A DNA stretch of 64,000 bases from assembly GCF_037198285.1 (NCBI RefSeq), contig NZ_CP147243.1, forward strand, positions 744,001 to 808,000. The letters are read 5' to 3'. A program made the position numbers and the translations under genes. Under the pieces are notes generated by a model, which worked only from the letters and a program-made list of their open reading frames with translations, did no database searches and was not told where the DNA came from. This DNA is from Haladaptatus sp. DJG-WS-42 (lineage in GTDB: Archaea > Halobacteriota > Halobacteria > Halobacteriales > Halococcaceae). Shown here piece by piece: positions 13,368-17,773 of the stretch (the stretch's first letter is position 1; each line of letters starts with the position of its first letter).

Positions 13368-14215
13368 GTGAAAACCGGAGCCCCATCAGCCGACTCCACG
13401 GGTGTTGGATGGAGAGGGGTTGTCGCGTTCCTCGTGCTTACGTTCGGGTTTTCGTGGGGGATTTGGGTGCCACAAGCACTCGTCGCTGAGGGGTTCATAG
13501 AGAGTGTTCCAACGCTCCCAAGTATCGGCGCTTATGGCCCGACCGTCGCCGCGTTCGTCCTCGTGACGTACGCAAACGGGTTGACCGGGGCAAAACAGCT
13601 CGCGGTGCGAGCCGTACAACTGGATTTCCCGAAGCGTTGGCTCATTCCTGCACTCGTTCTCGCCCCGGTAATCGTGTTCCTCTCGCTTGGGGTTGCCGTC
13701 GTGACTGAAACGACTCCGTCGTTCCCGTGGACCGGGAACCTCGTCGTCCTCCCCATCGCGTTCGTGGCCATCTCTTGTTGGGCGGTCCCATCCAGGAGGA
13801 GTTCGGCTGGAGAGGATACCTGCTTGGGCCATTGCAAGAACGGTTTACGGCACTCGGCGGGGGTGTTGCGGTTGGGCTCATCTGGGCACTCTGGCACGTC
13901 CCACTCTTCTACATCCCGAGTGAGACGATTTACTATCAGAGTTCGTTCGTCGGGTTCACCGTCTCGATAACCCTGCTCTCGGTCCTCATGACGTGGGTGT
14001 ACAACAACACGAACGCGAGCCTCCTGCCCGCACTGCTCTTCCACGCGACGTGGAACTGGTCACAGGGGATGTTTCCAATTCTCGAATCCGACCCGGCGAG
14101 CCTCACAATGGTCGTACTGCTTGTCGGTACGACCGGCGCAGTCGTTGCGTACTGGGGGCCACGGCGACTCCTTTGCGCCGACGATTCTGTGGCCACACAC
14201 GCGCCTTCGCGATAG
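13368..14215 (+). pseudogene. CPBP-family intramembrane metalloprotease, frameshifted
   Basis: Two overlapping frames together give one CPBP (Abi/Rce1-like) membrane protease of about 280 residues. The first frame (GTG at 13368) covers the first membrane helices and ends sensibly at IAFVAIS near 13772. The second frame resumes at 13775 with LLGGPIQEEFGWRGY, the catalytic Glu-Glu-x3-Arg motif, followed by LIWALWHVP and LLFHATWN with the two histidine motifs. One missing base in the TCTCTTGTTG stretch explains the break. All catalytic residues lie after the break, so the protein is probably not made. TATAAG at 13339-13344 is correctly placed for the GTG start. Confidence 0.75.
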
Positions 14216-14297: not shown

Positions 14298-14492
14298 AAA
14301 GCAGGCCTCGGCACACGAGCCAGTGAATATTACCGACTCGCTGAACTATTTATAGAAGAAGACTTGGTTTTTACTCAAATAGACATACGGCGCTACGATA
14401 TCTCGAGGAATGCGCCCTATGTAGCGGAATACTCTGAGCCTGCTCGCAACCGAACTCGCTACGGACTCGACAGAGATTCCAAGACGAGATAA
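14298..14492 (+). pseudogene. Possible gene remnant, unrecognised
   Basis: An open frame of 64 codons bounded upstream by a stop and with no credible start. The translation (…EYYRLAELFIEEDL…, then …RNAPYVAEYSEP…, ending RTRYGLDRDSKTR) has an amino-acid mix and codon use like a real haloarchaeal protein, with charged helices and no cysteine. It looks like the C-terminal part of a deleted gene at the edge of the island. I do not recognise the family. It could also be an accidental open frame. Confidence 0.3.
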
Positions 14493-14500
14493 TCCCGTTT

Positions 14501-14535
14501 CACTTTCACTCTGGTTTGCAGACACTTATTGTCTG
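14501..14535 (+). promoter_or_regulatory. Operon promoter with 19-bp element and inverted repeat
   Basis: CACTTTCACTCTGGTTTGC (14501-14519) recurs exactly at 17115-17133. It runs into an inverted repeat, CAGACA-CTTAT-TGTCTG (14519-14535). The loop and first base of the right arm form the TATA-like CTTATT (14525-14530), 24-29 nt before the ATG at 14554. The arrangement suggests a regulator that binds over the TATA box, with the 19-mer as an upstream site. Confidence 0.55.
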
Positions 14536-14553
14536 ACGCACGCATGACAACAT

Positions 14554-14814
14554 ATGAGCGATAAAGGAAATTCCCTTGCCAACATCAAGGTGAACAAAAA
14601 GCCCATCAAAGACCTCGACAGCGAAGTTGTGACAGCTCGAGAGATCATCAGTGCCTCCGGCCGAGACCCCGACGAGGTCGATGTCTTCCAACTCGAGAAT
14701 CAGGGAGACGAAGACGGCGACAAAGTGGCACTGTCCACGGAGTTCGACCGAACCGAGAAGCCCACGAAAACGCTCTTCTTCCGAGCGGTTCCTCAGCGAA
14801 ATGTCGGCTGCTGA
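14554..14814 (+). CDS. Ubiquitin-like modifier (single multiubiquitin-type beta-grasp)
   Basis: 86-residue small protein, first gene of a three-gene operon. The sequence fits the prokaryotic multiubiquitin-type beta-grasp: strand IKVNKKPI, strand/helix VVTAREIISASGRDPDEV, strand VFQLENQ, an acidic turn, KVALSTEF and a final strand TLFFRAVP at residues 73-80. Where many family members carry several tandem copies, this has one. The tail is QRNVGC, so the penultimate residue is Gly and a single Cys follows. By analogy with ubiquitin systems the C-terminal Gly would be activated by the downstream E1 after the JAB peptidase trims the tail. The last 14 nt overlap the E2-like gene, so the products are translationally coupled. 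Identification rests on pattern plus neighbours. Confidence 0.7.
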   Translation: MSDKGNSLANIKVNKKPIKDLDSEVVTAREIISASGRDPDEVDVFQLENQGDEDGDKVALSTEFDRTEKPTKTLFFRAVPQRNVGC

Positions 14815-15196
14815 GTTCCCTCCAAAGCTCCAACAAGACGCCGAGTATCTTCGGAAGGAAGGATACGACGTGGAGCTAGAGCGAGAAGGGAACAATGTCT
14901 ATGCGCTGTTCCACGAGTTCCAGCTACCTGAGGGGAAATACAACAAGCAAACGGTGACTATCCTACAACCAGTCCCGATTCCATATCCTGACGGAGAGAT
15001 GGAGATGTTCTGGACCGACGAAGACATTCGGACCACAAATGGAGAGATTCCTGAAAAGGCAGGTACGGTAAACTCCTATTTTGGTGAAAAATGGCGGCGG
15101 TTCTCGTGGCACAGAAAAAAGAAATGGGACCCTGCTACTGACGACCTGATAGACCAGGTCTCATTCATCGAGCAGCGGTTCGTCGAACACGACTAA
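14801..15196 (+). CDS. E2-like (UBC-fold) protein without cysteine
   Basis: 131 residues from the ATG at 14801, which overlaps the end of the modifier gene. It resembles the prokaryotic E2 family E: an N-terminal helix (PPKLQQDAEYLRKEGY), strands NVYALFHEFQLPEGKYN and TVTILQPVPIPYPDGEMEMFW. The YPDGEMEMF stretch corresponds to the YPxxxPxxxF region of E2 enzymes. A distal WRRFSWH (98-104) occupies the usual active-site neighbourhood. There is no cysteine anywhere in the protein, so a normal thioester with the modifier cannot form. It may be a non-catalytic partner (UEV-like), or use Ser, Lys or His instead. It is followed after 12 nt by the JAB-E1 gene. Confidence 0.65.
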   Translation: MSAAEFPPKLQQDAEYLRKEGYDVELEREGNNVYALFHEFQLPEGKYNKQTVTILQPVPIPYPDGEMEMFWTDEDIRTTNGEIPEKAGTVNSYFGEKWRRFSWHRKKKWDPATDDLIDQVSFIEQRFVEHD

Positions 15197-15208
15197 TCCT
15201 ACCTCACG

Positions 15209-16582
15209 ATGAACAAACTAGCCATCCTATCAGAGCCATGGTCGCATATTCAACAGCACATGACGAGAGAGTTTCCGGACGAATCTGGAGGCTTTCTTCT
15301 CGCGCGTGCAGTAGAAACAGAGAGCGGAGTCCGACTTGTCGTAGATGAAATCATAGACCCGTCCGAGGGAGACGATAGATGGCGACTGCAAAACCAACAG
15401 CAGCTCGCCCCTAGTGGTGAGTACATGAGCAAGACCGCTGCACGGGCCGATAACACTGGTCGAATTCCCGTATTCATCCACAACCACCCATCAGGAACGC
15501 TGAAAACGTTTAGCTACGCCGACGATTGGGCGCACGAAGCTTGGGCACCGTTCTTTGAGGAAGTCGGGCAAAACGGCTTCATTAGTGTCCTTGTTGCAGG
15601 CGATGGTGACAACATCGAGGCCGCCATTGCAGATGTTTGGTCCGAGGGAGAGCAATACGAGGTCGACACCGTCACGATTGCCGGGGAGCAGTTTCATCGC
15701 TCAGTTCGGGCAGTTGTGGACTCAGACTCCCATCCCTCTAATCCTCAGATGGACCGCCAAGAACGGATGTGGAGCGAGTATGGGCAGGCGCTCTTAGAGA
15801 ACTCACGAGTAGCAATCGTAGGTCTGGGTGGAACGGGAAGCGCCGCTGCAGTCCAGTGCGCTCGTGCAGGTGTAGGCGAACTTCTGCTGGTAGATTATGA
15901 CGATGCCGAGGAATCGAATTTGAATCGGCTCTACGGACTAACACCCTCGCAAGCTGAAAATGGTGCCTCAAAGACGGATGTAGTAGCTAGACACCTGCAA
16001 TCAATTTCTGGTGTTGATATCGAAACCATTGATACAGAGATTACGGACTATCGAATTCTACCCACTCTTCTGGATGCAGATGTCATTCTCGGCTGCACCG
16101 ATTCCGAGCAGAGTCGAGCGTATCTGAACAAACAAGCCCTTCTCTACGGAATCCCCTATGTCGATGTTGGCTGTGGACCCGAGGCGAACGAGGGAGAGGT
16201 GCTTTCGCTCTGGGCCGAAGTCCGTCGCGTTCTCTCGGGCGGTCCGTGTTTGTTCTGTATGGACGCCGTCGATTCCCAAGCAGTAGGCGGAGAAGGACTT
16301 CCAGACGAGGCACGAGAGGATGCACAGCGTGATGAGTATCTCCCAGACGATGTCATTGAGCCGAGTTTGGTAACGATGACGACGACAGCAGCCTCAATGG
16401 GTGTTACTCAAGCATTCGCTCTGCTCGTGTCACAACCAATCTACTGGGATCCACAGCACGCTATCGATGTCTGGTCGGGACTCAACCACATCGAAGTCAA
16501 AGAACCACAAACCGGCTGCGTATGCCAATCCGACCAGTGGGTCCCTCATCAAGCTTCGTTAGTAGACTGTAATCTGTATTGA
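15209..16582 (+). CDS. JAB peptidase - E1 (ThiF) fusion protein
   Basis: 457 residues, two domains. The N-terminal JAB/MPN metallopeptidase (about 1-145) has Glu25 in DESGG, then H91-N-H93-P and S102-Y-A-D105, the JAMM zinc site with one extra residue in its spacing. It should remove residues after the modifier glycine or cleave conjugates. The E1/ThiF adenylation domain (about 190-457) has GLGGTG at 205-210, Asp229, the E-S-N-L-N-R motif (235-240), ILGCTDSEQSR, a CLFC pair (347/350) and a CVC pair (437/439) that may hold zinc as in MoeB/ThiF. Other cysteines (322, 454) could be catalytic. It is the third gene of the operon and would activate and recycle the 86-residue modifier. Confidence 0.85.
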   Translation: MNKLAILSEPWSHIQQHMTREFPDESGGFLLARAVETESGVRLVVDEIIDPSEGDDRWRLQNQQQLAPSGEYMSKTAARADNTGRIPVFIHNHPSGTLKTFSYADDWAHEAWAPFFEEVGQNGFISVLVAGDGDNIEAAIADVWSEGEQYEVDTVTIAGEQFHRSVRAVVDSDSHPSNPQMDRQERMWSEYGQALLENSRVAIVGLGGTGSAAAVQCARAGVGELLLVDYDDAEESNLNRLYGLTPSQAENGASKTDVVARHLQSISGVDIETIDTEITDYRILPTLLDADVILGCTDSEQSRAYLNKQALLYGIPYVDVGCGPEANEGEVLSLWAEVRRVLSGGPCLFCMDAVDSQAVGGEGLPDEAREDAQRDEYLPDDVIEPSLVTMTTTAASMGVTQAFALLVSQPIYWDPQHAIDVWSGLNHIEVKEPQTGCVCQSDQWVPHQASLVDCNLY

Positions 16583-16633
16583 CCCTGTAGACAGGTCTGA
16601 AACTTCGACTAGCTCCCTCTGGACGCTATTGCA

Positions 16634-16990
16634 TCAGAAGTCATCCAATGCCCGTTGGTATATTTCATATCGGTCTGCTACGTGAGCAGCACCTTCTGAA
16701 ACACCTTCTTCACAGGACTCCTGATAGTACCTAAGCTCTCGCCCAAAGTTATCAATTCCAAACGCGCAAATGAGTGCGACTTCTGCAGTAGAGATTGCAG
16801 AGTAGGCTAACAGTCGGATTGCCCTGTCGATGAACTTGATGTAGCCCGGCCCATACAGCCGGCTGAATATTCCGCCATGTTCGTAGTTGGCCCATTCTCG
16901 GAGTAGTTTGAATACGTGGTAGAAAGTAGAGGTGTCCTGCCCATCAGCCCATGTCCTGATATTTTTTGCTTTGATATATACCGCATTCAT
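16634..16990 (-). CDS. Hypothetical protein, probably 5'-truncated
   Basis: From the ATG at 16988-16990 the protein has 118 residues and no recognised family. It contains FYHVFKLLREWANYEHGG, an amphipathic segment FIDRAIRLLAYSAISTAEVALI and an acidic C-terminus. The frame stays open and coding-like upstream (reading …KPFPYFIVVENEEWIPE…, then GQREEKYANHYERQ) as far as a TGA at 17120-17122. No start codon lies in that stretch; beyond the TGA the same frame has a short ATG-led run, MNVSKPE, from 17143. So the natural N-terminus has been lost, or the gene carries a nonsense mutation. It runs convergent to the ubiquitin-like operon, A/T-richer than the core genome; a role in that system is only inferred from position. 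Confidence 0.5.
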   Translation of the reverse strand: MNAVYIKAKNIRTWADGQDTSTFYHVFKLLREWANYEHGGIFSRLYGPGYIKFIDRAIRLLAYSAISTAEVALICAFGIDNFGRELRYYQESCEEGVSEGAAHVADRYEIYQRALDDF

Positions 16991-17114
16991 TTGACGCTCA
17001 TAGTGATTTGCATATTTTTCCTCACGCTGACCACGGATTTCAGGTATCCATTCTTCATTTTCAACGACAATGAAGTACGGAAATGGTTTCCTGAAGTCGA
17101 AGAATTGCCGAGAC

Positions 17115-17133
17115 CACTTTCACTCTGGTTTGC
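17115..17133 (+). repeat. Second copy of the 19-bp promoter element
   Basis: Exact copy of CACTTTCACTCTGGTTTGC found at 14501. Similarity continues into the next 12 bases (8 of 12 identical), the stretch that holds the TATA-like box of the ubiquitin-like operon. Both copies point towards a plus-strand gene: 35 nt before the modifier ATG and 47 nt before the WYL-like ATG. A shared promoter/operator is favoured over a recombination site. Confidence 0.6.
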
Positions 17134-17179
17134 TGACATTCATGGTTGTTGGCTACGGAGACTTTCATAGGCGAAAACG

Positions 17180-17473
17180 ATGAACGACGTAATCTGTAAA
17201 TCAATTCGAGAGCAGAAAGTCATCGAGTTCATTTACGATGGGCATCATCGAAAGGTCGAACCCTTCTGCCACGGTCGGAGCAAGAAGGGCAAAGAATCGC
17301 TTAGAGGTTATCAAATTGCAGGAGGGAGCAACTCACGGCAAGTTCCATTTTGGCGGCTTTTTACGGTCACAAAAATGAGGAATCTGAATTTGACAGACGA
17401 AACATTCACCGGAAATCGCCCTCGATACAACCCGAATGATAAGGATTTGTCTCCGGTCCACTGCAGCATCTGA
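17180..17473 (+). CDS. Small WYL-like domain protein
   Basis: 97 residues. It follows the pattern of short stand-alone WYL-type proteins: VICKSIREQKVIEFIYDG, HHRKVEPFCHGRSKKG, LRGYQIAGGSNS, PFWRLFTVTKM, then FTGNRPRYNPNDKD. The Trp-Tyr-Leu triad itself is replaced (RGYQ), as is common in these short relatives. WYL domains bind ligands and often control defence loci. There is no HTH here, so it would need a partner to bind DNA. It shares its upstream element with the ubiquitin-like operon. Base composition is A/T-rich like the rest of the island. Confidence 0.6.
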   Translation: MNDVICKSIREQKVIEFIYDGHHRKVEPFCHGRSKKGKESLRGYQIAGGSNSRQVPFWRLFTVTKMRNLNLTDETFTGNRPRYNPNDKDLSPVHCSI

Positions 17474-17773
17474 TAATATTTCAGGAACTTTCGAAAAGAG
17501 GAACCATCTCGGTAATAGGTCGGCCTCGGCACTCATAGGGCTCCGCATCACCAACTGCCTAGGTTGGTTCGGAGTCGGTGCCTCGTCATTGGCCACCTGA
17601 ATGTACCCAACCGACGAGCAAGTCAGTTTTCTTCTGGAGAGCACGTTTCGACCCGACCGGAGAACCAGCAGGCGACGACCGGCTACGAGGAGGCGTGACG
17701 AGGAGTGCGAAGACGGTGGGCGAATCCGCTATCCCGAGGCGTTGCTCGACGTGGTAAAAACGGACTGGGCGGG
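17474..17773. other. Right flank of the accessory island
   Basis: 300 bp without a recognisable gene. Composition is A/T-rich up to about 17510 and returns to the G/C-rich host pattern by about 17640, so the island edge probably lies here. No integrase, tRNA or long repeat is visible. Confidence 0.4.

Follow-up and report, generated by a model that had tools for sequence, protein, structure and literature searches.

A bub-type operon in a haloarchaeon, carried by an insert at the 3' end of the sR-tMet guide RNA gene

Background

The operons of class 6e have been described as encoding a ubiquitin-like protein (Ubl), mostly in tandem, an inactive E2-/RWD-like protein, a JAB-E1 fusion and a metal-binding protein (Iyer et al. 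2006, PMC1779556). The solved Citrobacter proteins BubA, BubB and BubCD (9ea4, 9ea5, 9ea8, 9eae, 9eav) belong to the Bub (bacterial ubiquitination-like) pathway (Ye et al. 2026 and Gong et al. 2025, as cited in PMC13373217), and class 6e is here equated with Bub, a link of our own drawn through the PDB names. Bub operons have no demonstrated protection against phage (PMC13373217). Among archaea, the E1/E2 cascade of an uncultured archaeon has been reconstructed (PMC5654768).

The present analysis concerns a stretch of 64,000 nucleotides of Haladaptatus sp. DJG-WS-42 (contig NZ_CP147243.1), hereafter the window. The reading that we favour, with a probability of about 0.7, is that a bub operon resides in this haloarchaeon on a small element that carried it in by site-specific integration next to the 3' end of sR-tMet, and that its products would work without cysteine. 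The haloarchaea are the class in which SAMPylation was discovered, and for which genetics exists. A complete bub operon in one of them makes it possible to ask if two unrelated Ubl systems can share a cell, and if an E2 devoid of Cys is functional in an archaeal host.

The operon and its products

An initial annotation, made from the DNA letters and their reading frames, had placed three overlapping or adjacent genes on one strand, and the open reading frame coordinates bear this out. The order is bubA-bubB-bubCD, all within 14554-16582:

14554..14814, plus strand: bubA, putative solo beta-grasp Ubl of 86 aa with the C-terminus ...VGC (weak Multi_ubiq match, orthologue alignment, Foldseek)
14801..15196, plus strand: bubB, E2-fold protein (Prok-E2_E) of 131 aa, with 0 Cys and S102-x-H104
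15209..16582, plus strand: bubCD, fusion of a JAB (JAMM) metallopeptidase with an E1/ThiF adenylating domain, 457 aa

The ATG of bubB, at 14801, lies within bubA, giving an overlap of 14 nt. The second gene had been read as an E2-like protein of UBC fold, which agrees with a Pfam match to Prok-E2_E (7e-26, well above the cut-off) and with its AlphaFold model (pLDDT 94), whose sole significant structural match in Foldseek is Citrobacter BubB in 9eae (TM 0.82); this is also its nearest solved sequence (1e-9). The third had been read as a JAB domain fused to E1/ThiF, and BubCD matches Pfam ThiF at 1e-33 and Prok-JAB at 2e-5, the latter borderline (24.7 bits against a cut-off of 25), with JAMM and adenylation residues intact. 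The nearest solved sequence is Citrobacter BubCD (2e-23, residues 2-404). With the E1-E2 models of PADLOC, the match is confined to the E1 part of the window proteins.

The claim of a solo Ubl of multiubiquitin type is supported cumulatively. BubA matches Multi_ubiq (Pfam) at 0.019, under the cut-off, and a search of the own genome with this family returned no match, because the window Ubl is too divergent for the model. For a profile built from 14 upstream Ubls, BubA is the top of the 947 window ORFs, yet with E=0.07. Its structural model is of low confidence (pLDDT 60), and bacterial multi-ubiquitin proteins lead its Foldseek matches (prob 0.93-0.98, E about 0.1, none significant), the first of them from E. 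coli; high in the list stands, in addition, Citrobacter BubA in complex with BubCD, at an E-value that is not significant. In the alignment, a C-terminal Gly (Gly85 of BubA) is common to the orthologues and is followed by 0-15 residues; two orthologous Ubls terminate exactly at it, and in BubA the tail beyond it is a single residue, Cys86. The position of BubA upstream of the E2 is the expected operon slot. It is the joint weight of profile, fold, Gly tail and operon position that carries the probable assignment of BubA as a Ubl. The identity of the operon as bub is well supported.

Active sites and proposed mechanism

BubB has no cysteine in its whole sequence. Among 68 aligned E2 sequences, S102 is kept in 66, H104 in 67, W109 in 67 and D114 in 64; Cys stands at position 104 in none and at position 102 in one. 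In two haloarchaeal relatives with a real Cys (G336 and Natribaculum), this residue aligns with S102. The JAMM set of BubCD is complete (E25, H91, H93, S102 and D105), and D105 aligns with D104 of Citrobacter BubCD, for which a D104A mutant is present in the PDB. The E1 domain keeps G207, R240, K255 and D298, which we assign to G41, R73, K86 and D130 of MoeB (residues listed in PMC12355090). Between C350 and C439 this domain has no Cys, that is, no thioester Cys, and the first CxxC pair is missing from Citrobacter BubCD too.

The three genes had been described as a minimal conjugation and deconjugation set. As regards gene content this stands; the classical E1-to-E2 thioester cascade falls, as the sequences of both proteins lack the catalytic Cys without which it is impossible. 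Any conjugation must therefore bypass thioesters. The papers on the Bub mechanism are said to describe a route without cysteine thioesters.

From the conservation of the active sites and of the Gly tail we infer trimming, adenylation and a Cys-free transfer. The JAB domain of BubCD would first trim Cys86 off BubA, exposing Gly85, which the E1 domain would then adenylate. Since the E1 lacks a thioester Cys, the activated BubA would reach BubB by a thioester-free route, most likely being bound as an ester to Ser102 with the aid of His104, a step suggested by the conservation of these residues; from BubB it would go on to target proteins. Finally, the JAB domain could undo the modification.

The E2 of class 6e was read as inactive by Iyer et al. 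(2006, PMC1779556), and BubB might accordingly be a catalytically dead UEV/RWD-like Ubl binder that only positions the Ubl or the substrate, the E1 domain by itself moving adenylated BubA on to its targets or to a single fixed partner. The lack of Cys in BubB would agree with this, as would the fact that MoeB-like E1s act by adenylation without an E2. However, a surface that only binds would not need S102 and H104 to be so conserved, and S102 occupies the very position of the Cys, which makes a dead BubB unlikely in our judgement, although deserving of attention.

That no protein is tagged at all appears improbable. BubA would then serve a sulfur-carrier or small-molecule pathway like those of MoaD/MoeB or MccB, in which the JAB domain would set the carrier free. 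The closest non-Bub relatives of the E1 are indeed MoeB, ThiF and MccB, and the thioester Cys is absent; against this, the insert holds no biosynthetic gene, the partner has a UBC fold, the solved Bub relatives bear titles as a Ubl system, and the genome already has UbaA and its SAMP route.

The insert and its attachment site

The surroundings of the operon comprise the following features:

14304..14314, minus strand: distal attachment-site copy, last 11 nt of sR-tMet (GTGCCGAGGCC on the minus strand); single copy in G124
14315..17521, no strand: inserted DNA of ~3.2 kb that holds the operon, GC 50.5%; G124 and G356 lack it at the same site
16634..16990, minus strand: truncated gene, open 3' part, related to a gene within a Halobaculum BREX locus
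17180..17473, plus strand: intact WYL-like protein, 97 aa, no HTH (plasmid-protein identity, weak PADLOC WYL match)
17522..17594, minus strand: intact sR-tMet box C/D guide RNA gene (Rfam RF02163, 61.1 bits, gathering 50)
17522-17532: proximal attachment core, within sR-tMet

In the congeners G124 and G356, the chromosomal site is present and the operon absent. In G124 both flanks are contiguous, with an 11-bp overlap, GGCCTCGGCAC, which occurs twice in the window (14304-14314 and 17522-17532) and is the final 11 nt of sR-tMet. The proposal of horizontal acquisition in an A/T-richer island therefore holds for this insert of ~3.2 kb, absent from both congeners, the GC content of which is 50.5% against about 60%. 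Acquisition of the operon by insertion is well supported.

The other genes of the insert have relatives elsewhere. For the truncated gene, tblastn gives 42% identity over 92 aa and 7.7e-23 over a longer stretch; the similarity continues past a stop to about 17128, the 5' part is missing, and the Halobaculum BREX relative lies between pglX and a PglZ-domain gene. The WYL-like protein is 83% and 80% identical to proteins of haloarchaeal plasmids.

A broken CPBP gene had been counted as part of the island. The gene (Rce1-like, 13368-14215) is indeed frameshifted in the window, being one intact frame in G124, and the frameshift is either a real mutation or a sequencing error. Since it lies ~0.5 kb outside the insert, its breakage is unrelated to the insertion, and the idea that the insertion broke the gene was rejected.

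A site-specific integrative element of the tyrosine integrase type is expected to adjoin the 3' end of an RNA gene, to be flanked by short direct repeats and to leave relatives with an unoccupied site, and all three features are found here. The insert has no integrase (no PF00589 match), and four other sR-tMet elements have one; it is therefore called an integrated element and not an autonomous one. The absence of an integrase would also suit insertion by transposition or illegitimate recombination, the 11-bp repeat being an ordinary target duplication, and the 11-nt duplicate is by itself not distinct from controls, in which 11- and 12-nt matches arise by chance. We give this little credence: the end of the duplicate coincides with the 3' end of the sRNA, which also holds for 12 of the 13 other genomes that have duplicates of 13-15 nt, sR-tMet elements carry closely related integrases, the distal arm resembles that of other elements (TCGTG before TGCCGAGGCC), and there are no notable terminal inverted repeats. 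Site-specific integration remains the favoured reading.

sR-tMet as an integration target

sR-tMet was found in all 116 haloarchaeal genomes searched. Of 60 genomes, 13 carry a second copy of its 3' end, 13-15 nt long, no more than about 20 kb downstream, and two control readings gave no duplicates of at least 13 nt. Distal copies often share the arm GTGAGTCG. Other elements thus use the 3' end of sR-tMet too. Those of G016, G091 and G076, whose hosts span two families, encode tyrosine integrases of 310 aa with 87-91% mutual identity, and G017 has a relative at about 69%. Cargo was looked at for selected elements, with no enrichment claimed, and includes Hachiman HamA/HamB (G053), a HEC-06-like protein (G016) and two methyltransferases (G076).

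A few sR-tMet elements measure just 0.4-1.1 kb. Very small elements of ~0.9 kb lie downstream of sR-tMet in G013, G015 and G083 (L202, L199 and L211), and in two of these a short ORF resembles a PIN protein on visual inspection. At the other extreme, G017 has a 20-kb sR-tMet element (L170 and L171; C1:648000-672000) with three integrase matches, which also encloses another full sR-tMet-like RNA and may consist of two elements in tandem.

A review of archaeal integrases (PMC8371274) names tRNA genes, coding genes and intergenic sites as targets, and a term search of it gave no guide-RNA target. It can be put forward tentatively, at slightly less than even odds, that the 3' end of sR-tMet serves as a dedicated hotspot for integration and defence, with an integrase family of its own, and that it has brought to a haloarchaeon a Ubl conjugation pathway with a Cys-free serine (ester) E2, alongside the native SAMP/UbaA. 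As a universal marker, the sR-tMet site can be scanned for new haloarchaeal defence cargo.

Shared upstream element and possible role

A 32-nt element is present in two copies in the genome, both in the window:

14501..14532, plus strand: copy 1, upstream of bubA, candidate shared promoter/operator
17115..17146, plus strand: copy 2, upstream of the WYL-like gene

The copies are 88% identical, with 19 nt identical, and begin 53 nt 5' of bubA and 65 nt 5' of the WYL-like gene. A Natrinema homologue of the latter has a matching motif at about equal upstream distance. As the motif CACTTTCACTCTGGTTTGC, with at most 2 mismatches, this element occurs in 50 of 292 haloarchaeal genomes and is commoner than a backward-read control pattern. 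The 32-nt repeat (D2) had been considered as a second attachment pair, which was rejected, given that the copies lie 53-65 nt upstream of start codons and that the matching motif precedes a WYL homologue elsewhere.

Bacterial bub operons often stand beside CapW, a WYL regulator, or CapH+CapP (219/544; PMC13373217). The WYL-like protein of the insert lacks an HTH and is therefore at most a partial analogue. The shared element suggests that the operon and the WYL-like gene are co-regulated, in which case the operon would probably be a switchable stress or defence module. From its context, a defence role of the operon is plausible.

Relatives and distribution

The genomes of 84,980 prokaryote species were scanned with an E1 alignment and the best 80 loci kept. 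Nearly all of these are bacterial, and in 65 a Prok-E2_E gene adjoins or overlaps the E1 gene on its upstream side, so that the gene order is kept in (bacterial) relatives. The alignment was needed to find them, a scan of genome contigs with the JAB-E1 protein alone having returned no relative; in viral contigs, partial E1 matches only were obtained.

Prok-E2_E is matched in 8 of 392 Halobacteria, the match in the window being much the strongest, and the congeners in this sample have none. Of the other seven matches, one is of a Cys-containing form, and six represent another form, in which a long acidic helical part precedes the Ubl and is mostly fused to the E2. In four loci (L009, L011, L012 and L013, of G091, G369, G373 and G332), the acidic helical part, Ubl and E2 make up one protein, followed by a JAB-E1 of ~600 aa; a conserved gene of 255 aa, divergently oriented, accompanies them, and several have a tyrosine-recombinase-like gene next to it. 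L015 (4535-6638) and L045 (3345-6632) represent a third form among haloarchaea, in which the E2 position is held by Cys (WFKWC, IKYC). Natribaculum has two Ubl/E2 pairs in tandem, then one JAB-E1 gene with a C-terminal hydrophobic stretch.

In a tree of 75 rows of concatenated E1+E2, the window shares its side with 31 further rows, which include every archaeal one. Its own long branch (2.13 changes per site) leaves its exact place, and hence its nearest kin, unsettled; by path, the nearest rows are loci of Nitrospirota, Thermoplasmatota and Chloroflexota. An origin from the other haloarchaeal bub-like loci was considered; these form separate branches, within the limit that the long branch sets on the placing of the window.

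The metal-binding protein DUF6527 is encoded in 46 of the 53 relatives with enough flank, and is not taken as defining because the other 7 lack it. It is absent from the window, from the own genome and from the three nearest tree loci; the three-gene form may thus characterise a lineage and need not reflect decay. A decaying, functionless remnant is the alternative that this absence brings to mind, as do the truncated neighbour gene, the missing integrase and the long branch. It is nevertheless quite unlikely: none of the three frames is broken, every recognised active-site residue is kept, the loci closest by tree path are likewise without DUF6527, and the candidate promoter element is retained.

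Comparison with known systems

Bil and the type II CBASS proteins Cap2/Cap3 rely on thioester cysteines and on other E2s. They share with the window operon a prokaryotic conjugation of Ubl type and JAB proteases, and are known for phage defence. An E1-E2 fusion, or a Cys E2 with a thioester E1, sets them apart, and the window proteins have neither. The phage-active relatives (Bil, CBASS Cap2) belong to other classes than Bub.

Haloarchaeal SAMP/UbaA/JAMM systems are similar in having a beta-grasp modifier, an E1 of ThiF/MoeB fold and a JAMM protease, but work without an E2 and with unlinked genes. The same genome has a canonical UbaA, encoded by a separate gene at C1:1814604.

Class 6e operons also combine a Ubl, an inactive E2-/RWD-like protein and a JAB-E1 fusion; unlike the window, they are bacterial and mostly have tandem Ubls and a metal-binding protein, a solo Ubl being noted for one species. 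The plasmid cassettes of Deinococcus and Bradyrhizobium (L041, L046) share the solo Ubl, the separate E2 and the JAB-E1, the Bradyrhizobium one with an identical 14-nt overlap, but both have an additional phosphotransferase and DUF6527.

Citrobacter Bub is alike in its Prok-E2_E E2 with S-x-H, its JAB-E1 fusion without a thioester Cys in the E1, its gene order and the position of the JAMM Asp. In contrast, the window has an archaeal host, a solo Ubl with the one-residue tail Cys86 where Citrobacter has tandem Ubl domains, and no DUF6527 gene, and the E2s are 24-30% identical. The operon is a new archaeal case of a known kind, and the island that targets an sRNA gene is the fresher part.
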